A DNA stretch of 52,506 bases from Bacteroidota bacterium (lineage in GTDB: Bacteria; Bacteroidota; Bacteroidia; Palsa-948), in the NCBI GenBank assembly GCA_016213405.1, contig JACRAM010000038.1:1-52506 (forward strand), written 5' to 3'. Positions 1,611-35,041 of the stretch are shown in pieces. The notes beneath the pieces were generated by a model. That model did not search any database, was not told the origin of the DNA, and saw only the letters and a program-made list of their open reading frames with translations. Position numbers and translations under genes: made by a program. Within the stretch, counting starts at the first letter, position 1. Each line of letters starts with the position of its first letter.

Positions 1611-1695
1611 TCAAAGGTATACCGGATTAACTTAAAAGTTCGTGTGGCAACTTCAGGTGTGCGATGGATTACTTATGGTGGTTCAATCCTATTTT

Positions 1696-1703
1696 TACCT
1701 TTG
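1696..1703 (+). promoter_or_regulatory. Bacteroidota -7 promoter box TACCTTTG for the carboxylase gene
   Basis: TACCTTTG matches the Bacteroidota consensus TAnnTTTG exactly. It lies 18 bases before the GTG at 1722 but downstream of the ATG at 1644. It therefore argues that translation starts at 1722, since a transcript from here would not contain the ATG. Confidence 0.6.
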
Positions 1704-1721
1704 TCATCACAAACGCAAGTT

Positions 1722-3242
1722 GTGAAAAATAAAATAAACGAACTGCAACAAAAAATTTCCGAAGCCCAATTAGGCGGAGGGGAAAAACGCATTGAATCCC
1801 AACACAAGAAAGGAAAACTCACCGCAAGAGAACGCCTTCATTTTTTATTAGATGAAGGAAGTTTTGAAGAAATCGGAATGTTTGTTACGCACCGTTCCAC
1901 CGAATTCGGTTTGGAGAAAGAAAAATATTTAGGCGATGGGGTGGTGACGGGTTACGGAACCATCAACGGAAGATTAGTATATGTTTTCGCGCAGGACTTC
2001 ACCGTGTTCGGAGGTTCTCTTTCTGAAGCGCACGCTGAAAAAATTTGTAGAGTGATGGATTTAGCTATGAAAAATGGCGCACCAATAATTGGCTTGAACG
2101 ATTCAGGCGGAGCAAGAATCCAGGAAGGTGTTGTTTCGCTTGGAGGTTATGCAGATATTTTTTACCGCAACACGCGCGCATCAGGAGTCATTCCTCAGAT
2201 ATCTGCCGTAATGGGACCTTGCGCGGGCGGTGCGGTTTATTCTCCTGCGATTACCGATTTTATCCTGATGGTGGAACATACTTCCTACATGTTTGTTACA
2301 GGACCGAACGTAGTGAAAACCGTTACACACGAAGAAGTTACCAGTGAAGAACTCGGAGGGGCATCCGTGCATTCATCCAAATCGGGCGTGGCACACTTTT
2401 CCTGTGCGAACGGATTGGAGTGCATCAACAACATCAAAAAGCTTTTGAGCTACATTCCGCAGAACTGCGAAGAAGAAACTCCAATCCATTTTTTCGATTC
2501 GTCCCTCGTCCCTCGTCCCTCGTCCCTTGATAATATTATTCCCGAAAATCCGAATCAGCCTTACGATATGCGCGATGTGATAAACGGAACGGTTGATACG
2601 GATTCTTTTTTTGAAGTGCATAAAAATTTTGCAGAGAATATTGTCGTAGGTTTTGCGAGATTAGCAGGAAGAAGTATCGGTATTGTGGCAAACCAGCCAG
2701 CGCATCTGGCAGGAGTTCTCGATATTCACTCATCACAAAAAGCCGCTCGCTTTGTCCGCTTCTGCGATTCATTTAACATTCCGCTTTTGGTTTTTGAAGA
2801 CGTTCCCGGCTTTTTGCCAGGCACCGATCAGGAATGGAACGCGATTATTTCCAATGGGGCAAAACTTTTGTACGCTTTCTGTGAAGCAACTGTTCCGCGC
2901 GTTACGGTGATTACCCGCAAAGCTTACGGAGGCGCGTATGATGTGATGAACTCCAAACACATTGGCGCAGATATGAATTACGCATGGCCTTCAGCAGAAA
3001 TTGCTGTGATGGGTGCAAAAGGCGCAGTGGAAATTATTTTCAAGGGAACGCTGGATTTAAAAAAACAGGAAGCAGAATACATTGAACATTTTGCCAATCC
3101 TTACCGCGCTGCAGAGCGAGGATATATTGATGAAGTGATTCTCCCGGGGCAAACGAGGGATAAATTAATCTCCGCTTTCAAAATGCTGGAGAATAAGGTT
3201 GACAAGCTCCCTAAGAAGAAGCACGGGAATATTCCTCTCTGA
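1722..3242 (+). CDS. Acyl-CoA (propionyl-CoA-type) carboxylase carboxyltransferase subunit
   Basis: This is the biotin-dependent carboxyltransferase that moves CO2 from carboxybiotin to a short acyl-CoA, most likely propionyl-CoA to methylmalonyl-CoA. Family landmarks in order: GKLTARERL near the N-terminus, [27 protein letters not shown] (acyl-CoA pocket of the N-half), [15 protein letters not shown], then in the C-half [26 protein letters not shown] and [17 protein letters not shown]. An ATG at 1644 extends the frame by 26 residues with no family character. The GTG at 1722 gives [12 protein letters not shown], the usual family start, and 506 residues, the usual length; a promoter box at 1696-1703 supports it. 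A heptanucleotide array (2501-2528) is translated as [10 protein letters not shown] in a variable loop. No biotin carboxylase subunit lies next to it. Confidence 0.93.
2501..2528 (+). repeat. Heptanucleotide array GTCCCTC x4 inside the carboxylase gene
   Basis: Three perfect GTCCCTC units and a fourth, GTCCCTT, stand head to tail. They are translated as part of [13 protein letters not shown] between the conserved blocks [12 protein letters not shown] and [17 protein letters not shown], where related proteins vary in length. Confidence 0.9.
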
Positions 3243-5161: not shown

Positions 5162-8100
5162 ATGTACAAATCCGATTATAACATATTGCTCGAAAAACTT
5201 GATGAGTTCATCCGCAAGTATTACAAGAACCAGCTGATACGCGGGCTACTTTATTCTACGGGAATTGTGCTGGCATTTTATCTTGCAGTTGCTATTCTGG
5301 AATATTATGGGCAGTTTGATACAACCGTACGCAGTATTCTTTTTTATCTTTTTATTCTGACGAACGGATATGTCCTAGCTAAATTGATTGCAATCCCTAT
5401 TATGAAACTTTATAAGATGGGAAAAATTATCTCCAACGAACAGGCATCAGAGATTATCGGAAAATATTTTTCAAATGTGCAGGATAAACTTTTAAATGTT
5501 TTGCAACTTCAAAGTCAATCTTCCATTCTTCCATCCTTCCAATCTTCCATTCTCATCGAAGCCAGCATCAACCAGAAGATAAAAGAACTTAAGCCCATTC
5601 CGTTTACATCGGCAATTGACCTGCGTCAGAATAAAAAATATCTGAAGTATGCATTAGTTCCTCTGCTTTTGTTCTTCGCAATTTTATTCGGGGCGCCAAG
5701 CATTATTAAAGATAGCACTGAGCGGTTACTTAATCACGGAACTTATTTTGAAAAGCAGGCGCCTTTTCAGTTTCTCATTCAGAACAAAGACCTGAAAACT
5801 CCTCAGCAGGAAGATTTTCTTCTCGAAGTTCAACTGGACGGAAAAGAAATTCCTGATGAAATATTTGTCAACCTGAACGGAAGCGAATACAAACTCACCA
5901 AAGAAAATAAAACCGAATTCAGTTTCCTTTTCAAGAATGTGCAGAAGAATATTCCCTTTCATTTTTCAGCGGAGGGATTTTCCTCTAAAAATTATGAACT
6001 GGTTGCTTTGCCAAAGCCGATTCTTTTAGATTTCTCTTTACGGTTGAATTACCCGAAATACATCGGGAAAAAAGATGAAACACTTCACAATACAGGCGAC
6101 CTGATGATTCCCGCAGGAACAAAAGTCACTTGGAATTTTAATACGCAGAATGCCAAACAGATGAAACTTGGATTTCAAGACACTATTTTTTTCGTTGCTC
6201 CTACAGAAGAAAATAAATTCACCGCTTCACAAATTTTCCTCAAAGACAAAACCTATTCCATTTCCACTTCCAACGAATTTCTTCAGAATAGAGATTCGGT
6301 TACATATTCTGTGAATGTGATACCGGATATTTTTCCCGCCATTATGGTGGAAGAGAGAAAAGATTCTGTTTCGCTTAAGCAGTTTTACTATGCAGGAAAC
6401 ATAAAAGATGATTACGGTTTCAGAAATCTGACTTTCAATTATAAATTCTTAGTTCACAATGATTCCTCATCCCATCTGCTCTCTGCTCTCTTACATCTTA
6501 CATCTATCCCAATTCCCATAGCTAAAAATGTTACCACACAATCGTTCTATCATTTCTGGGACATGACCAGTTTGAACATTTCCCCAGGTGATGAGATTGA
6601 ATATTATTTTGAAGTGTGGGATAACGATGGTGTGAACGGAAGCAAGTCTTCCAAATCACAATCCATGATTTACCGCGCGCCTTCACTCAATGAAATTGAA
6701 AAGAACACCGAGAAAAACAATTCAGATATAAAAAAAGAAATGGAGCAAAGCATTAAGGATGCGCAGTATCTGCAGAAGGAAATGCAGGATTTGTACAAGA
6801 AGATTCTGGAAAAGAAAAATCTTTCATGGGAAGAAAAGAAAAAGCTGGATGACCTTTTAAAGAAGCAGAAAGAACTGGAAGATAAGATCAACGAGATAAA
6901 AAAAGAAAACCAGCAGAACAACCAGCAGCAATCTGAATTTCAAAAACCGAACGATGAAATCCTTGACAAGCAAAAGCAATTAGAAAAACTAATGGAAACT
7001 GTGATGACGGATGAAATGAAAAAAATGTTTCTTGAAATGCAAAAGCTGATGGAAAAGATGGACAAGAATAAAATTCAGGAAATGCTGGAGAAAATGCAAC
7101 TCTCCAACAAAGACATTGAAAAAGAGCTCGACCGCAATCTGGAAATCTTTAAGAAGATGGAGTTTGAACAGAAGTTTGAAAAAACGCTGGACAAGCTGAA
7201 TGAACTTTCAAAAAAACAGGATGAACTTGGAGACAAATCGCTCGACAAAAAAGCAGACGACAAAGAATTAAAGAAACAACAGGATTCGTTGAACAAGCAA
7301 TTTGACGATATCAAAAAAGATTTGGAAGATTTGAAGAAAAAAAATGATGCTCTTGAAAATCCAGAGAACATGCCTGACACGAAAGAGAAGCAGGAAGAAA
7401 TTTCAAAAGACCAGCAAAACTCCAGCAAGGAATTAAATGACGGCAAAAGTAAAAGCGCTTCCAAGTCCCAGAAGAGCGCATCGCAAAAGATGAACCAGAT
7501 GGCGCAGCAAATGGGAGAGGCGATGGCGCAGATGCAACAAGAGCAAGAAGGAGAGGACGAACAGGCGCTTCGTGATATTCTGAACAACCTCATTCAGCTT
7601 TCATTTGATCAGGAAGCGCTGATGAAGGATGTGGAAAAAATAAAAACGGATAACCCGCAGTATGTAAAACTTTCGCAGCAGCAAAAGAAATTGAAAGACG
7701 ATGCCAAAATGATTGAAGACAGTTTGTTCGCGCTGAGCAAGCGACAGCCCATGATTGCTTCTGCAGTGAATAAAGAAATTTCTGCAATTAATTCCAATAT
7801 GGAAAAATCAATTTCCCTCATGGGAAAGCGCGAAAACAGATTTACGCCTGATATTACTTCGCGCCAGCAATTCTCAATGACCTCTATAAATAATCTTGCC
7901 CTCATGTTGAACGAATCGCTCAATCAGATGCAGAATAATTGCAAGAAGAGCGGGGCTTGCACCAAACCCGGTTCCTGCAAAAAGCCCGGTCACGGAAAAA
8001 AACCATCTGCCGGTAGCATGAGCAAAATGCAGGAGCAATTAAAGAAGCAGATGGAAGCGCTCAAGAAATCAATGGAGCAAGGAAAACAACAGGGCGGTCA

Positions 8101-8539
8101 GCAGGGCAACAGCAATTGGAGTCAGGAACTGGTGAGGATTGCCGCCCAGCAGGAAGCTTTAAAACAAATGATGCAGCAAATGCAGAAGGAGGGAGGCATG
8201 AACCCGGGTGACATGAAGAACATGCTTAAGATGATGGAAGAATCTCAAAAGGATGTGGTGAACCGTATATTAAATGAAGAAACCCTCAAGCGGCAGGATC
8301 AGATTCTGGAAAAGCTCCTTGACTATGAAAAAGCGGAAAAAGAGCGCGAAACCGAGAAAAAAAGACAGGCGGAACAACCAAAAGATGACTATAAACGTAA
8401 CCTTTCTCAATTTATGGAGTATAAAATCCATAAAGAGAAAGAGACCGAATTGCTGAAAACCGTTCCTCCCTCTTTTAATAAGTTCTATAAGAATAAAGTA
8501 TCTGAATATTTTAATAATTTCGCAAACGAAAAAGAATAA
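5162..8539 (+). CDS. Giant DUF4175-like membrane protein with long coiled coil
   Basis: The product has 1125 residues. Membrane segments appear at about 26-47, 57-80 and 162-184, followed by a beta-rich domain to about 505 that would face the periplasm, ending in a typical EIEYYFEVWDNDGVNGSKSSKS strand pair. From about 510 to 860 it is a K/E/Q-rich coiled coil. Residues 926-946 carry four closely spaced cysteines (NCKKSGACTKPGSCKKPG), then more Q/M-rich helix to the end. This is the layout of the Bacteroidota DUF4175 proteins, whose function is not established. The gene is followed after 5 bp by an RsbW-like ATPase, so the two are probably co-transcribed. Two short tandem arrays (5517-5554, 8-base; 6475-6509, 7-base) are translated inside it. 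Confidence 0.82.
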   Translation: MYKSDYNILLEKLDEFIRKYYKNQLIRGLLYSTGIVLAFYLAVAILEYYGQFDTTVRSILFYLFILTNGYVLAKLIAIPIMKLYKMGKIISNEQASEIIGKYFSNVQDKLLNVLQLQSQSSILPSFQSSILIEASINQKIKELKPIPFTSAIDLRQNKKYLKYALVPLLLFFAILFGAPSIIKDSTERLLNHGTYFEKQAPFQFLIQNKDLKTPQQEDFLLEVQLDGKEIPDEIFVNLNGSEYKLTKENKTEFSFLFKNVQKNIPFHFSAEGFSSKNYELVALPKPILLDFSLRLNYPKYIGKKDETLHNTGDLMIPAGTKVTWNFNTQNAKQMKLGFQDTIFFVAPTEENKFTASQIFLKDKTYSISTSNEFLQNRDSVTYSVNVIPDIFPAIMVEERKDSVSLKQFYYAGNIKDDYGFRNLTFNYKFLVHNDSSSHLLSALLHLTSIPIPIAKNVTTQSFYHFWDMTSLNISPGDEIEYYFEVWDNDGVNGSKSSKSQSMIYRAPSLNEIEKNTEKNNSDIKKEMEQSIKDAQYLQKEMQDLYKKILEKKNLSWEEKKKLDDLLKKQKELEDKINEIKKENQQNNQQQSEFQKPNDEILDKQKQLEKLMETVMTDEMKKMFLEMQKLMEKMDKNKIQEMLEKMQLSNKDIEKELDRNLEIFKKMEFEQKFEKTLDKLNELSKKQDELGDKSLDKKADDKELKKQQDSLNKQFDDIKKDLEDLKKKNDALENPENMPDTKEKQEEISKDQQNSSKELNDGKSKSASKSQKSASQKMNQMAQQMGEAMAQMQQEQEGEDEQALRDILNNLIQLSFDQEALMKDVEKIKTDNPQYVKLSQQQKKLKDDAKMIEDSLFALSKRQPMIASAVNKEISAINSNMEKSISLMGKRENRFTPDITSRQQFSMTSINNLALMLNESLNQMQNNCKKSGACTKPGSCKKPGHGKKPSAGSMSKMQEQLKKQMEALKKSMEQGKQQGGQQGNSNWSQELVRIAAQQEALKQMMQQMQKEGGMNPGDMKNMLKMMEESQKDVVNRILNEETLKRQDQILEKLLDYEKAEKERETEKKRQAEQPKDDYKRNLSQFMEYKIHKEKETELLKTVPPSFNKFYKNKVSEYFNNFANEKE
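5517..5554 (+). repeat. Octanucleotide-type array inside the DUF4175-like gene
   Basis: Units AATCTTCC, ATTCTTCC, ATCCTTCC, AATCTTCC and a partial ATTCTC follow each other. They are translated as SSILPSFQSSIL. Confidence 0.75.
6475..6509 (+). repeat. Heptanucleotide array inside the DUF4175-like gene
   Basis: Five consecutive 7-base units: TCTGCTC, TCTGCTC, TCTTACA, TCTTACA, TCTATCC. They are translated as part of HLLSALLHLTSIPI. Confidence 0.85.
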
Positions 8540-26380: not shown

Positions 26381-26400
26381 TTACTTTTTGTTTTGCATTT

Positions 26401-26460
26401 GTCATTTCGACCAAAGGGAGAAATCTCCTTAATGAGATTCCTCACTGCATTCGGAATGAC
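26401..26460. repeat. GTCATTTCGA palindromic repeat between groES and groEL
   Basis: GTCATTTCGA (26401-26410) and TCGGAATGAC (26451-26460) are inverted ends with one mismatch; GAAATCTCC and GAGATTCCTC lie inside. Half or full relatives occur at 28930-28956, 41236-41264, 41427-41453 and 52134-52160. Confidence 0.8.
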
Positions 26461-26466
26461 AGTGTG

Positions 26467-26977: not shown

Positions 26978-27325
26978 TTACTTCGGTTGTTGCTGAGTCG
27001 GAGCTTGCTGTTGCTGAGCAGGCATAGAAGGAGCTCCGTTGCCAGGCATAGGCATTTCAGATTTCCCAACAATGGATTCTTTGGTTTCAGTTTTTCCGGC
27101 ACCGTTTCCAACAATTGCTGCAAACGCTATGCACAGCACTACAAGTCCGCCAACAAATCCCCAAGTGATTTGCTCGATGAGCTCAACTTGCTGTTTTGCG
27201 CCAATGAATGTGTTGGTTGACATAAAGTTTGACGCGATTCCACCACCTTTTGGATTCTGAATGAGAACAATCAAAGTGAGAAGAACGCATACGATAATAA
27301 TAAGGATGGAAAGAAAAGTAGCCAT
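26978..27325 (-). CDS. secG: Preprotein translocase subunit SecG
   Basis: A 115-residue protein with two membrane helices (about 3-23, LSILIIIVCVLLTLIVLIQN, and about 53-75, ITWGFVGGLVVLCIAFAAIV). Between them is the SecG signature NPKGGGIASNF. The Q/P/A-rich tail (PAQQQQAPTQQQPK) is typical of Bacteroidota SecG. It assists SecYEG. The gene order lptE - TPR gene - secG - groES - groEL is a conserved block in the phylum. Confidence 0.94.
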   Translation of the reverse strand: MATFLSILIIIVCVLLTLIVLIQNPKGGGIASNFMSTNTFIGAKQQVELIEQITWGFVGGLVVLCIAFAAIVGNGAGKTETKESIVGKSEMPMPGNGAPSMPAQQQQAPTQQQPK

Positions 27326-27346: not shown

Positions 27347-27697
27347 TTACTTGTTTTTCTGATCCTCCAAGAGTTTTTTTATTTTCTCTAAAAGGGGAGC
27401 GAATATATGAATCTTTTCGGGATGCTTCACAAGCAAAATTTCGTAGGCACGGAGGGCTTTCGGGAGGTTGCCTTGCTTTAAATAGATGGTGGCAAGCGTC
27501 TCGGAAACGAAGGTTTCATCATCCTTAATGCTTTTTTTCGCCATGGCTTCGGCAGAATAGAATTCGGCTTTGGGTTTGGGAGCCGATTTAGCCGTTTGGT
27601 CAAGGAGAAAGTTATCAATGAGCTGATTCGTTTGCTTTTGCTGATTTACTTTTTGCTCAATCGCAGAAGCGGGAGTTTGTCCGCTCACTACTTTCAT
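27347..27697 (-). CDS. C-terminal half of a split TPR-like gene
   Basis: These 116 residues include EFYSAEAMAKKSIKDDETFV, SETLATIYLKQGNLPKALRA and YEILLVKHPEKIHIFAPLLE, a TPR-like ending. The same frame is open upstream of the ATG and encodes GTYSFGDW before MKVVSG, which continues the protein family's conserved text. The ATG at 27697 is therefore not the true beginning of the domain. The missing N-terminal part lies in another frame at 27748-28272. Two heptanucleotide arrays occupy the junction. If translated separately, this half could start at the ATG; otherwise it needs a frameshift. Confidence 0.7.
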   Translation of the reverse strand: MKVVSGQTPASAIEQKVNQQKQTNQLIDNFLLDQTAKSAPKPKAEFYSAEAMAKKSIKDDETFVSETLATIYLKQGNLPKALRAYEILLVKHPEKIHIFAPLLEKIKKLLEDQKNK

Positions 27698-27723: not shown

Positions 27724-27781
27724 GTTTGTGGTTTGTGGTTTGTGGTTCTATTGGAACTTGAGATTTGAGACTTGAGACTTT
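27724..27781 (-). repeat. Two heptanucleotide arrays at the frame junction
   Basis: Plus-strand units GTTTGTG x3 (27724-27744), then GAACTTG, AGATTTG, AGACTTG, AGACTTT (27754-27781). They lie exactly between the two halves of the TPR gene. Confidence 0.92.
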
Positions 27782-28272
27782 TCCTCAAGAATATCAATCG
27801 TCATTGAAGTGCGGTACGCTTCTCTCAGCATTTCTTTTTCCAGCAATTGAAGGTCATCGTATTCGTCTTTCTTTTCTTCCTTAATAGTCATTGGCATTTC
27901 CTGAAGGATAGCAATCGGTTCTAACTTTGGAAAAATTTCTTTCGGCTGTTCTTTGTCTACTGTTGACTGTCTACTGTCTATTTGTATTTCTTGAGATGGT
28001 TCGGCTTCGCTCACCATATGCTTGTGAATTGAGACTTGTGGTTTTTTCTTGATTAAATTGTAAAGCACCTTCCCGCTCGGAGCATAGGCAGAAGTGATGT
28101 GCAGATTTTTTTCGTAGTCAATGCTGTTTTGATTGTGAAGGTTTTTCAGGTACAGCATTCTTCCCGTTTGGAAATAGGGATACTCCTGCACCAATTTTTC
28201 CAGCGCGGAAATGGAATGACCGTTCAACTTCTCAGGAAAATTCAGGTATTCTATAAATTGATTGCGGGTCAT
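27748..28272 (-). CDS. N-terminal half of a split TPR-like gene
   Basis: The 174-residue product begins MTRNQFIEYLNFPEKLNGHS and has the family block PYFQTGRMLYLKNLHNQNSI and HITSAYAPSGKVLYNLIKKK. It then ends in SQVSNLKFQ, which is translated heptanucleotide repeat, and stops at TAG. Relatives continue straight into a YSFGDW...TPR part, which here is found in the frame shifted by one base. A third heptanucleotide array (27955-27982) is translated as part of QIDSRQSTVDKEQ. Promoter box TAAGTTTG lies at 28291-28298. The protein sits between lptE and secG, the usual place; its function is not established. Confidence 0.72.
   Translation of the reverse strand: MTRNQFIEYLNFPEKLNGHSISALEKLVQEYPYFQTGRMLYLKNLHNQNSIDYEKNLHITSAYAPSGKVLYNLIKKKPQVSIHKHMVSEAEPSQEIQIDSRQSTVDKEQPKEIFPKLEPIAILQEMPMTIKEEKKDEYDDLQLLEKEMLREAYRTSMTIDILEEKSQVSNLKFQ
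27955..27982 (-). repeat. Heptanucleotide array inside the split TPR gene
   Basis: Plus-strand units GTCTACT, GTTGACT, GTCTACT, GTCTATT. Translated on the minus strand as part of QIDSRQSTVD. Confidence 0.9.
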
Positions 28273-28388: not shown

Positions 28389-28904
28389 TTACCAGTTAAC
28401 CATCGCCTTGTTAAAAATATCCTGAACCAATTGCTTGTTGATGTCTTCTATGAGCGATTCCTGCACGGATGTTAAGCTTTGTGTGCTGGAATAATCTGAA
28501 TAGCGGGCGAAACTTGTTTCAAAGTTTTGCTTTTCATCTTTTGCATTTGTAAATAGTATATGCACTGTGATGGTGAGGCGGTTGAGCGCTGCCTGGTCGT
28601 TGCTTTGGATGGCAACAGGTTGTGTAATGTAGTTGGTAATCTCGCCTTCAAAACTCAAATCTCCGCTTTGTGAAACGATGCCGAGATTGGTTTGCGAAGT
28701 GAAAATATCTTTTACCGCCTCGGTGAGCGACTGGCTGAGCGTGGGAGGAGCCAGCGATGCGTTGTTCTTGAAAGTTTGTATGGAAACGGTTTTTACATCG
28801 GGAGAAACGGATGCACCTGAAAAGGAGTAGTGGACTTTGCAGGAAGAGAATGCAAGTAAACAACAGACAATAGACAATAGACAATATTTGAATGCGCGTT
28901 TCAT
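28389..28904 (-). CDS. lptE: LptE-like LPS-assembly lipoprotein
   Basis: From the ATG at 28904 the product has 171 residues: a lipoprotein signal ending LLAFSSC (Cys at about 22), then VHYSFSGASVSPDVKTVSIQ, TFKNNASLAPPTLSQSLTEA, DLSFEGEITNY and VQESLIEDINKQLVQDIFNK. This is the LptE/RlpB pattern of Bacteroidota. LptE plugs LptD in the outer membrane. A longer frame from 28952 adds residues encoded by a GTCATTGCGAG-type repeat (28930-28956) and is unlikely to be the real start. The signal-peptide region KYCLLSIVCCLLAFSS is encoded by a heptanucleotide array (28861-28888). Confidence 0.87.
   Translation of the reverse strand: MKRAFKYCLLSIVCCLLAFSSCKVHYSFSGASVSPDVKTVSIQTFKNNASLAPPTLSQSLTEAVKDIFTSQTNLGIVSQSGDLSFEGEITNYITQPVAIQSNDQAALNRLTITVHILFTNAKDEKQNFETSFARYSDYSSTQSLTSVQESLIEDINKQLVQDIFNKAMVNW
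28861..28888 (-). repeat. Heptanucleotide array in the lptE signal peptide
   Basis: Plus-strand units CAACAGA, CAATAGA, CAATAGA, CAATATT; they encode YCLLSIVCCL on the minus strand. Confidence 0.9.
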
Positions 28905-28929: not shown

Positions 28930-28956
28930 AGATTGCTTCGCTTCGCTCGCAATGAC
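28930..28956. repeat. GTCATTGCGAG-type half palindrome upstream of lptE
   Basis: The minus strand reads GTCATTGCGAGCGAAGCGAA followed by GCAATCT, almost identical to the copy translated at 41236-41264. Confidence 0.85.
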
Positions 28957-29053
28957 GATGATGAGTAAGAGAAGAATTTTTTTCATTCGGAATCTTTTCT
29001 CAAAGATAGGGATAAATATTTTGTTTGCGTTAGCGATTGCAGCGGCATATGAG

Positions 29054-32800: not shown

Positions 32801-35041
32801 AGAAGCAAGAAAACCAATCATGCCCTTATCCGTAAGAACATAAATCTCGCTGGAGCTTTCTCCGTCCTGAATGGGTTTATGAATATCTCCGGCTGAACAA
32901 CCATACGCACTGAAGAACGGGTATTTTCCATTTGAGTTATTATTGTATTGTTCAGGAGGAAGAAGATTATAATCAAATATGGAAGCGGAAGAATGCCCGA
33001 AGAAAGTGATGAGTGAAACACCGTTGTTTATTAATCCGCGAATTGAATCAGTGGGCGCGGTCTGAGTTGGTAACGAAGAATTTTTTTTGAATGTGTGCAC
33101 ATATCCGCCAAAACTGGTGTCTTCAAGGGTTGTTTCATATCCCAAAAGATAAGTGGTTATTTCCCCCTGCAGGCTGGGAGTATCTCCTCCTCTCAGATGA
33201 ATAATATGCTTCATCCATTCATCGGGATTTGGCAGCGGATGTTCATACTTCCTCACCTTATCAAGGTAATTGGTAATGTCAGGATTATTTTTTGCCGCGA
33301 GACGCCCTAACGGAATTGCTGGTTTCATAAGATTGCCGTTAAGCACAGCAACCAGCATATTATCGCTGGTGGGAAACCCGATGGAGGGCACTAAACAATT
33401 TGCGTAATTGATTCCTGAAGGATCTGAATAATTGTTTCTGATAAGATCGGTTTGAATGGATTTTCCTATAAGGAAAAGATCTTGCGGCAAAGAAGGAAAA
33501 ACATCCGTGCAGTAATCAGCAAAATGGCGAATGGCAAACGGATGTTTTGGAATGCCGTAGGCAAACTGGTCATATAATTCATCAATGTCAGCAACAATCA
33601 CATTATGCCCGCCACCTCCGGAAGTGGAAGGATCTGCCCGGTAATTTTGATAGGCAAGTGCGCCCGACATCAAACTATTATGAGTAATGATGATGTATGC
33701 AGAATCAGCAGCCATTGCCGAATAATCAGTAAAAAAACCTGTGCCTCTTACCGGTTTTATAGACGGCACGGATAAAAAATGATTTTCAGATTTCACCACA
33801 CAGAATTTTTCAGAAGCATTAAACGCATTCGGCACAAGCGCTTTATACGCGCCTCCGCTATTAGTCATCTGAATTTTTAAGTGATTGGTAAAATCATACA
33901 AATAGGCGGAAGAACTGGAGTCATTAAAATTTGTGAAACTGAAATTGGATTTGGATTGTTGAGAAGAATTGTCCGGCACGAACATTTCATAGTAAGTTTT
34001 ATTTTCAAGATTCATGTTGTGAGGGAATTTCATCACTGCATAAGGAACTGTGTTGCGGCTGGCAGTAGCAGGAGCTACGGAAAGTGCTGTAACTACCAGC
34101 TCAGTTGATGCGCCAAAAGTAGCAGAGGGCAAATAATAAGCCGAATCAAAAAGAGAGTACCCGTTAAATGAATCGGTATCAAATGAAATATAATTGCCCA
34201 AAACATCTTTATATTTTAAATTAAACTTGTGATTATAAGTAGTAGCATAGTCATTAGATTCTCCCATTAAAGCAAGTTTAATTTCTGTTTGCTGCGGACA
34301 AACAGAACATGTGTTTGATGTATTAAAAGTAACAGTAAATTTATTTGTAGGGACATATTCATCGAAATCAACACCTGACCAGCCTTCTGCTTCGTGATAT
34401 TCAGGAAAATTAATATTTTGGGCAGTGAATTTTCCGGCATAATAATTTGTATGGTTTTCAATAATAATTTCTTTCATGAAATAATTTGTCTGCGGAATCG
34501 AAGAATAGGCGGTATCGGTGTCAGGCACAATCCGGTTGTTGGCAGTTAAATTATTCCAGGTGAGAAAGTATGCCGAAGTATCGTTGAACAAACTGTAATA
34601 CGGATTCGGCTGCCGAACTGGCTTGTCATATAAATCGCCTTTATAAAGGACGGAATCAAGCGAGCCGTCATTTTTCTGCCCGTAAAATTCTATGTAGTCG
34701 TTAGTATCTAATGTGTCATTTCCATTTTTGTCTTCCACATAAATGTATTGTTCCTGTCCGCGAAAGAAAATTTGAAAGTTGCGGGAATCCTTTGTTAAAG
34801 GATTAATTCCTGCATTTGAAAGCGTTTGAAAATCGAGCCGGTAAATTCCGTTTTTCGCTATGGGAATTTTGTAATAAGTTTGGGAGAAATTAATCCACTC
34901 GTTCCAATAAATCTGTGGCTGAGAAAAGCAAAAAGAAGAAGGCGAAAAGCAAAAGGCAAAAAAAATCACAATCTTTTTAACCTGTCCCGAAGGGATGGAT
35001 TTCCATAACTTGTAATTTGTAACTTGTAATTTTTTCTTCAT
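29864..35041 (-). CDS. C25-family gingipain-like protein, probable T9SS sortase PorU2
   Basis: The product has 1725 residues. Catalytic C25 motifs are present: ITFFGHSS with His at about 683 and FSAYGCSAG with Cys at about 715, 32 apart as in gingipain. The N-terminal part carries YRLDFQTLSNAGINPLTKDS and RNFQIFFRGQEQYIYVEDKN, the PorU-type entry domain. After the peptidase come several beta domains with CARDB-like repeats (about 840-950 and 1400-1550). A FlgD-like end follows at about 1615-1725 (YPNPFSTSTRFVFTL, GWLHIGRNITEYAWDGKDEF). PorU proper has about 1150 residues; the longer form next to a PorV/PorQ-like gene fits the PorU2 group. Such enzymes cut sorting domains and attach cargo to the surface. 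The signal peptide is encoded by two heptanucleotide arrays. The start overlaps the porV-like stop (ATGA). Confidence 0.85.
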   Translation of the reverse strand: MKKKLQVTNYKLWKSIPSGQVKKIVIFFAFCFSPSSFCFSQPQIYWNEWINFSQTYYKIPIAKNGIYRLDFQTLSNAGINPLTKDSRNFQIFFRGQEQYIYVEDKNGNDTLDTNDYIEFYGQKNDGSLDSVLYKGDLYDKPVRQPNPYYSLFNDTSAYFLTWNNLTANNRIVPDTDTAYSSIPQTNYFMKEIIIENHTNYYAGKFTAQNINFPEYHEAEGWSGVDFDEYVPTNKFTVTFNTSNTCSVCPQQTEIKLALMGESNDYATTYNHKFNLKYKDVLGNYISFDTDSFNGYSLFDSAYYLPSATFGASTELVVTALSVAPATASRNTVPYAVMKFPHNMNLENKTYYEMFVPDNSSQQSKSNFSFTNFNDSSSSAYLYDFTNHLKIQMTNSGGAYKALVPNAFNASEKFCVVKSENHFLSVPSIKPVRGTGFFTDYSAMAADSAYIIITHNSLMSGALAYQNYRADPSTSGGGGHNVIVADIDELYDQFAYGIPKHPFAIRHFADYCTDVFPSLPQDLFLIGKSIQTDLIRNNYSDPSGINYANCLVPSIGFPTSDNMLVAVLNGNLMKPAIPLGRLAAKNNPDITNYLDKVRKYEHPLPNPDEWMKHIIHLRGGDTPSLQGEITTYLLGYETTLEDTSFGGYVHTFKKNSSLPTQTAPTDSIRGLINNGVSLITFFGHSSASIFDYNLLPPEQYNNNSNGKYPFFSAYGCSAGDIHKPIQDGESSSEIYVLTDKGMIGFLASSGPGTPPDMDKFASNLYKNIGKDLYGQSIGKCIQSAIDTIEGNGTAMYINATCLEMTLHGDPAIVIHASKLPDYAVNNSLNNSSVYFTPAYVSTDLDSFDMNVIVTNIGKATNDSVKVDIKRVFVDGTSVSYSDTLPYLYYKDTVIFTLPVDPIHGPGLNKFEVHVDPLNSVDELDNFINNNIIPPNEIPLLIYSGDIIPVYPYKYAIVPNDTIILKAYTANPFALSAQYIFEVDTTDLFNSFQKKTQYATQMGAVIKTPLPVILSSLPDSTVYFWRVRRDDLDTLTYRWRESSFQYIPNKRGWGQSHFFQFLKGDKFSYIDTNRVNRSFDLDFQTHAIEVGTCNSTQATGSVYFNMDGQVISFNSSVSAFIPHVLVSVINPITGVVWSNINGNDYGSFPINPCNRFEFLTSTPSQQETLRTFLQDSIPCGSKVILYTSGNHNLGDILGGNPLTTNPGLVQAFMSIGGTQFSAIQNNYPYILIGRKCGTAVEELGANSNTVSFLSDTLMIKRESGYIFSETVGPASKWESMHWKYRLPSPGSQDSIKITVIGIKNNGDTATLIKNISKDYLGFDIYNLDNTISADTYPYLKLTAWVKDSIKHMPAQLTYWRVYYDGVPEASLNPFKNYTFYNPSIQQGDSIKMSVAIENIGDYDMDSLWVDFWVYDSNRSKVPLPSVKLAPLLVDSFLIANTKFPTVNLNGINIPGGLNSLWVEANPFNAQHQLEQYHFNNIGTIPFNVNTDKINPLMDVTFDGVHIMNGDLVSAKPNILIKLKDENTFLALNDPSDFDVRLKRPGKTTYDTVLFGSSMTFEPAVLPSNSCKINYMPALPDGIYELKVQAKDRSGNNSGIVEYKISFEVINKPTVTSVLNYPNPFSTSTRFVFTLTGSEVPDYFKIQIITISGKMVREINKQELGWLHIGRNITEYAWDGKDEFGDQLANGLYLYRVITQLDGKSLEHRETTADPFFTQGYGKMYLIR
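34927..34961 (-). repeat. Heptanucleotide array in the porU2-like signal peptide (second)
   Basis: Plus-strand units AGCAAAA, AGAAGAA, GGCGAAA, AGCAAAA, GGCAAAA; they encode AFCFSPSSFCFS. Confidence 0.85.
35006..35033 (-). repeat. Heptanucleotide array at the porU2-like start (first)
   Basis: Plus-strand units TAACTTG, TAATTTG, TAACTTG, TAATTTT; they encode residues 3-12 (KKLQVTNYKL). A TCCCGAAGGGATGG repeat (34985-34998) follows and encodes SIPSGQ. Confidence 0.9.

Follow-up and report, generated by a model that had tools for sequence, protein, structure and literature searches.

Rickettsia palindromic elements are repeats inserted in frame in protein-coding genes. Among long simple sequence repeats, heptanucleotide units dominate according to Mrazek et al. 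2007, as described in PMC4679880 and PMC4692102, and the heptanucleotide repeats of cyanobacteria are of the same kind. Direct repeats of the unit TAACTGA, which for the most part directly precede start codons, occur in Beggiatoaceae, Cyanobacteria and some Bacteroidetes (PMC4679880). Strain-variable heptanucleotide tracts of Haemophilus influenzae are located in the hmw1A and hmw2A promoters and elsewhere, near adhesin or receptor genes (PMC2651432). The window analysed here, the whole stretch of 52,506 nucleotides from a Bacteroidota genome (G000 below), contains a conserved gene between lptE and secG that is interrupted at heptamer arrays with the units AAGTCTC and CCACAAA; the TAACTGA unit is absent from these arrays.

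Frames and arrays of the split gene

The features of the interrupted gene and its surroundings are given by position in the window and by strand.

lptE, start ATG at 28904, upstream neighbour of the split gene
27748..28272, minus strand, N-terminal open reading frame (N-ORF) of the gene between lptE and secG, 174 amino acids, ATG at 28272, stop codon TAG at 27750-27748
27756..27780, minus strand, AAGTCTC-type array (ACTTGAG-type by TRF), 3.6 copies, 88% match, within the overlap of the two frames; the only array whose length can join them
27748..27784, minus strand, overlap of the N and C open frames, 37 nt, the sole place for a joining shift
27724..27747, minus strand, CCACAAA (= GTTTGTG) array, 3.4 copies by TRF, 100% match, 3' of the stop codon
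27347..27697, minus strand, C-terminal open reading frame (C-ORF) with a weak TPR motif, 116 amino acids from its first ATG at 27697; frame open from 27784
26978-27325, secG, downstream neighbour of the split gene

The preliminary description of this DNA stated that the gene is divided between two frames, that two heptamer arrays occupy the junction, and that one added unit, or the loss of two, would restore the frame. The division is present in the assembly, with the N-ORF at 28272-27748 and the C frame (PQTTNHKQGTYSFGDWMKVVSG...), which includes GTYSFGDWMKVVSG and the conserved C-terminal part, open from 27784. The ATG codons of the two ORFs are 575 nt apart (2 mod 3), which places the C half in the -1 frame and bears out the arithmetic: a net change of +7 or -14 nt (+1 or -2 heptamers) would fuse the N and C frames. 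Any join is confined to 27784-27748 because a TGA just to the 5' side closes the C frame and the TAG at the 3' end closes the N frame. Read in the N frame, the overlap is GAG GAA AAG TCT CAA GTC TCA AAT CTC AAG TTC CAA TAG.

On the coding (minus) strand, both arrays belong to one phase-7 series in which the unit drifts from AAGTCTC to CCACAAA (AAGTCTC AAGTCTC AAATCTC AAGTTCC AATAGAA CCACAAA CCACAAA CCACAAA). The AAGTCTC-type array fills 25 of the 37 nt in which the frames can be joined. The GTTTGTG array is outside this stretch, and a change in its length cannot restore the frame because the whole array is 3' of the TAG; a join through it is ruled out. The placement of arrays at the junction thus holds for the AAGTCTC-type array, inside the overlap, whereas the GTTTGTG array, beyond the stop codon, has no part in frame restoration.

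Conservation of the split gene

The gene was compared between G000, the genome analysed, and its relatives, including the congeners G001-G006, of which G006 is the sister of G000. A match to the C half was found in 54 of 60 relative genomes, including 53 of the 56 that are near-complete, and nearly all of these have a long open frame around the match. All five congeners that possess the gene (G001 and G003-G006) encode it as one unbroken ORF of 294-312 amino acids; G002 has no match to it, and G000 has a single copy. The N-domain of G000 is 79-87% identical to those of the congeners, and domain identities between G000 and the congeners are about the same as those among the congeners, the N-domain being slightly less similar to those of G003 and G004. 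Where dS is not saturated, either G000 half has a pairwise dN/dS of about 0.1; by this measure both halves are under purifying selection, and decay of the C half is ruled out. Given unbroken congener genes, similar identities and dN/dS of about 0.1, the break must therefore be recent, inconsequential, or not real. The earlier view that the two halves represent one conserved gene agrees with its unbroken state in five congeners and in nearly all other families; far from having two separate genes without repeats, the relatives have one gene, and most have different repeats of their own within it.

No Pfam or NCBIfam family scores above threshold for the protein, in which only a weak TPR motif is recognizable (TPR_6, E=1e-4 in a congener protein, below its cutoff), and no surface or modification signature was seen in these searches. 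The AlphaFold2 model of an intact congener protein, built from an alignment of three sequences, has a mean pLDDT of 43, which hints that residues 76-250 are largely unstructured. The gene normally encodes one continuous protein consisting of an N-domain, a probably unstructured linker and a C-terminal TPR-like part. Lag 7 is the strongest short periodicity of the gene in all five congeners, though weak in G005 (0.57); its peak is in the linker that matches the broken array in G003 and G004, and in the adjacent linker in G001 and G006. The first linker of the gene has a heptamer-type array of its own in G000 (27954-27980, listed below), and lag-7 arrays are also present within this linker in the homologs of G001, G003 and G006.

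Heptamer arrays in the window and across the genome

The window contains further heptamer arrays on both strands.

2499..2527, plus strand, TCGTCCC array, 4.1 copies, in frame in a carboxyltransferase gene (MmdA/PccB-like, 1644-3242; TIGR01117, E=2e-237, below its cutoff)
6475..6505, plus strand, TCTGCTC/TCTTACA arrays, in frame in the ORF 5162-8539
27954..27980, minus strand, third heptamer-type array of the split gene, in its first linker, in frame, peptide IDSRQSTVDK
28860..28886, minus strand, ACAATAG array encoding the LptE lipoprotein signal peptide CLLSIVCCLL (LptE Pfam, E=7.5e-20)
35006..35032, minus strand, TAACTTG/TAATTTG heptamers at the 5' end of a PorU2-like C25 protease ORF (MKKKLQVTNYKLWKS)

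Other heptamer units occupy the equivalent place in the LptE signal peptides of G003, G004 and G006, and CCGAAAT-type units are found in G001 and G002 at the site equivalent to the carboxyltransferase array. The heptamers at 35006-35032 encode a portion (LQVTNYKL) of the N-terminus of the PorU2-like protease. Between groEL and groES (26400-26461) are two inverted repeat arms of 31 nt that directly adjoin and are 74% complementary (TGTCATTTCGACC ... CATTCGGAATGACA); they resemble a dispersed palindromic element.

G000 was sampled in stretches totalling 678 kb, and 348 kb served for counts of exact arrays. Exact arrays of at least three copies numbered 15 at period 7 and none at period 6 or at periods 8-20; period 21 had two, period 5 two and period 4 six, and a second-order Markov control gave no exact array of period 7. 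By an imperfect-array score over the 678 kb, there were 55 arrays of period 7 and at most seven at each of periods 5, 6 and 8-13; harmonics or protein repeats probably account for some of the arrays at period 14 (11) and period 21 (30). A period-7 excess was likewise found in two congeners, and 24 short loci representing other families in the class had runs of at least 10 at lag 7 (15) and at its harmonic 14 (11), with at most one such run at any other tested lag. Runs of at least 6 in G000 were 2.4 times as frequent as expected at lag 7, versus 1.3-1.8 times at other lags except 14; a pervasive weak lag-7 bias outside arrays was rejected, because lag 14 is also in excess and the signal is inseparable from that of decayed arrays. 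The majority of arrays are flanked by coding sequence on one side or not at all, and nine of the 53 sampled in G000 lie inside coding sequence.

The 140 arrays fall into 91 distinct unit classes, which rules out a single dispersed unit family. Units are nevertheless shared between arrays more often than by chance: a hand count from class sizes gives roughly 90-100 unit-sharing pairs, versus a mean of 16 and a maximum of 34 in 200 draws of random 7-mers from the genome. The CATCAAC class has eight arrays in the sample, and a 22-nt CATCAAC pattern has eight matches in G000 (overlapping matches counted) and 17 in G006, is rare in G001 and G003, and is absent from the other nine genomes. The array in BioA (L056 16602-16632) and that in a spermidine-synthase-like gene, named by eye (L059 12644-12674), are unlinked and share 31 identical nt, a variant unit among them, which suggests that array DNA may have been copied between loci. 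Two identical 35-nt compound heptamer arrays are located about 930 nt apart in L062 (3920-3954 and 4849-4883).

Arrays within genes stay in frame

A 7-nt repeat in a coding sequence is necessarily a 7-residue (heptad) repeat in the peptide. Arrays were taken from samples of G000, G001 and G006 and counted as coding if a hexamer coding model called both flanks coding with one orientation. Thirteen arrays qualified, of which 12 are in frame and open, and the sole exception is the array of the split gene; if array length were random modulo 3, at least 12 of 13 in frame would have p of about 2e-5. Apart from the split gene, the G000 sample contributed eight coding arrays, all in frame. The genes concerned in G000 include those for ArgS, BioA, an ArgD-family transaminase, AroE, futalosine hydrolase (MqnB) and the carboxyltransferase, and in G006 that for PyrD; family names were checked by profile, with matches for AroE, ArgD and the carboxyltransferase that are strong but below the curated cut-offs. 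None of the array-bearing congener homologs tested is broken at its array. The futalosine hydrolase of G006 (L148) has an open frame about 18 amino acids shorter at the C-terminus than those of its congeners, away from the array.

Different units at the same protein position

For six array-bearing genes, homologs within the genus and in six other families were aligned, and the segment corresponding to the array was scored by its lag-7 rank within its own gene. The segment ranked in the top 5% of its gene in 17 of 34 congener homologs, where 1.7 would be expected (binomial p = 7.8e-14, homologs being treated as independent), and in two of 28 homologs from outside the genus, both of them from G011. 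A score of at least 9 was reached by lag 7 in 15 of the 34, and by any of nine other lags in one. Because the original sites had been chosen in G000, the test was repeated starting from arrays of G006 and G001: five of seven congener homologs were in the top 5%, one of them within the window. The PyrD array of G006 has counterparts in G000 (TCACTTC, four copies), in G001 and, weakly, in G005; an array found in G001 (CATCAAC) corresponds to 6475-6505 of the window and to CTCTTCC-type units in G003.

The units themselves differ. The ArgS site has GGTTACA-type units in G000, CATTAAC in G003, AATCACA in G006, AGTATCA in G001 and AGAAGTC in G002, and a unit is shared with G000 at an equivalent site only in BioA of the sister G006 (support 0.986). 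Judged from the aligned genes, array position persists among the congeners and the unit turns over. In PyrD and BioA the segment is as long in species with an array as in most of those without one, so that the array seemingly replaced sequence in place; in ArgD, and partly in AroE, the array adds length. An excess of heptamers was already known; their recurrence at homologous coding sites with different units is apparently the new part, no report of it having been found in the open-access papers searched.

Several other observations concern these genes. The array-encoded segment of PyrD in G000 (NLTSHFSLLTSIGAGG, L205) keeps the residue pattern of array-less relatives such as G009 (NLTSDLQLLTSIGAGG, L208). 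ArgS of G000 (L154) has a second repeat-like segment in frame (KSPPQPSRREGVAGLSSTPSGELEGA), and the ArgS gene of G005 has an AAGTCTC array elsewhere than at the tested ArgS site. Where AroE of G000 has heptamers, that of G002 (L103) has an element of about 85 nt that looks palindromic and keeps the frame (CGTCATTGCGAG ... CTCGCAATGACG); a piece similar to it, GATTGCTTCGCTTCGCTCGCAATGACG, is located upstream of lptE in the window (28931-28960).

Origin of the frame break

The explanation that we prefer, with moderate confidence, is that the arrays at 27724-27780 are the local version of a genus-wide linker array, in which a recent slippage-type length change, and not a dedicated switch, broke the frame. 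The AAGTCTC-type array would be off by a net one unit modulo three, putting the conserved C half out of frame, and the most likely cause would be that 7-nt units were recently gained or lost by a slippage-type event, the change being either fixed or segregating in the sampled population. A genome-wide process favouring 7-nt displacement may make and remodel arrays in tolerant DNA, such as intergenic DNA, signal peptides, linkers and variable segments. Within genes, selection would purge most out-of-frame outcomes, units would turn over through frame-restoring or length-neutral changes, and the split gene, with the one out-of-frame array found, may be the visible cost of the array-generating process. 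The preliminary description had offered disruption by repeat slippage as one of two readings; its observable part stands, since the break is in a heptamer array, is off by whole units and is lacking in the congeners, and slippage as the mutational step, together with the recency of the break, is what we infer. On the other side, the array is short for efficient slippage, the congeners carry other units and hence offer no ancestral array length for comparison, and simple unit gain fails for the PyrD and BioA segments, which are as long as those of most array-less relatives. A rather unlikely alternative, in which the split gene is one failure, is that a process rewrites short coding stretches in place into 7-nt-periodic sequence, often without change of length. 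Rewriting could proceed by misaligned copying from 7 nt away or by the use of arrays at other genomic places as templates, and variable protein segments would keep being rebuilt from heptamers with the enzyme still in frame.

An error of assembly or consensus, in which the real gene is continuous and heptamer units were gained or lost during assembly or in a low-coverage consensus, is somewhat unlikely. The assembly is a draft of 127 contigs, the gene is conserved in nearly all near-complete genomes and never array-broken in congeners, the estimates above show purifying selection on both halves, and interrupted coding sequences are often sequencing errors (PMC1852416). However, arrays of about 25 nt are well within short-read length, so that collapse is not expected, and the eight other coding arrays of G000 were assembled in frame. 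That the gene is stably split, into two separate polypeptides or as a young pseudogene, is quite unlikely: the C half has its own ATG at 27697, both halves are still conserved, and the linker is predicted, with low confidence, to be unstructured, so that the halves could in principle act apart, but no congener divides the gene at the break, the ATG of the C-ORF is 50 nt beyond the stop codon with no evident coupling, and the event is not datable from sequence. The other earlier reading, a phase-variable contingency locus in which toggling of the 7-nt array turns the full-length protein on and off, does not hold up well and is very unlikely. The unit is not a multiple of three, is inside an ORF and needs one addition to fuse the frames, and in H. 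influenzae phase variation depends, or has been proposed to depend, on tracts of heptanucleotides (PMC2651432); yet the H. influenzae hmw tracts have 13-38 copies (PMC2651432) and the arrays here 3.4 and 3.6, the profile searches gave no indication of a surface or modification gene, the GTTTGTG array beyond the stop codon cannot take part, and with 12 of 13 coding arrays in frame no other array-bearing gene copy examined is array-broken. Translational recoding, by which a -1 ribosomal frameshift in the overlap would yield the full-length protein, is extremely improbable: the C frame is indeed the -1 frame, with a 37-nt overlap, but the N frame of the overlap contains no slippery heptamer of the form X XXY YYZ, and the arrangement is found in no relative.

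Frame breaks at heptamer arrays in draft genomes should be read as switches only when sequencing reads are at hand. Arrays with fixed position and changing unit in ordinary enzymes make the origin of bacterial heptamer repeats testable, and they raise the questions of whether period 7 is set by the replication machinery, whether array DNA is mobile between loci, and what share of variable protein sequence derives from such arrays.

Comparison with known repeat systems

Like Rickettsia palindromic elements, the arrays are repetitive DNA coding for tolerated segments within housekeeping proteins; unlike them, they are tandem direct heptamers rather than inverted repeats, and the sole palindromic insertion seen is that in AroE of G002. 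With the H. influenzae tracts they share 7-nt units, and one intra-ORF tract of H. influenzae is associated with a frame shift (PMC2651432); those tracts mostly have 8-38 copies (PMC2651432), whereas about 3.5 copies are present here, in a conserved gene without an assigned role. TAACTGA repeats are likewise dispersed heptamer direct repeats whose coding orientation is restricted by stop codons, but they have one fixed unit, in contrast to the 91 classes among 140 arrays described here, some of which are coding. The long heptanucleotide simple sequence repeats are similar in that period 7 far outnumbers every other long unit and the arrays are short, diverse in unit and genome-wide; the arrays of this genus differ in that many are in frame within conserved genes, where they recur by position with different units.
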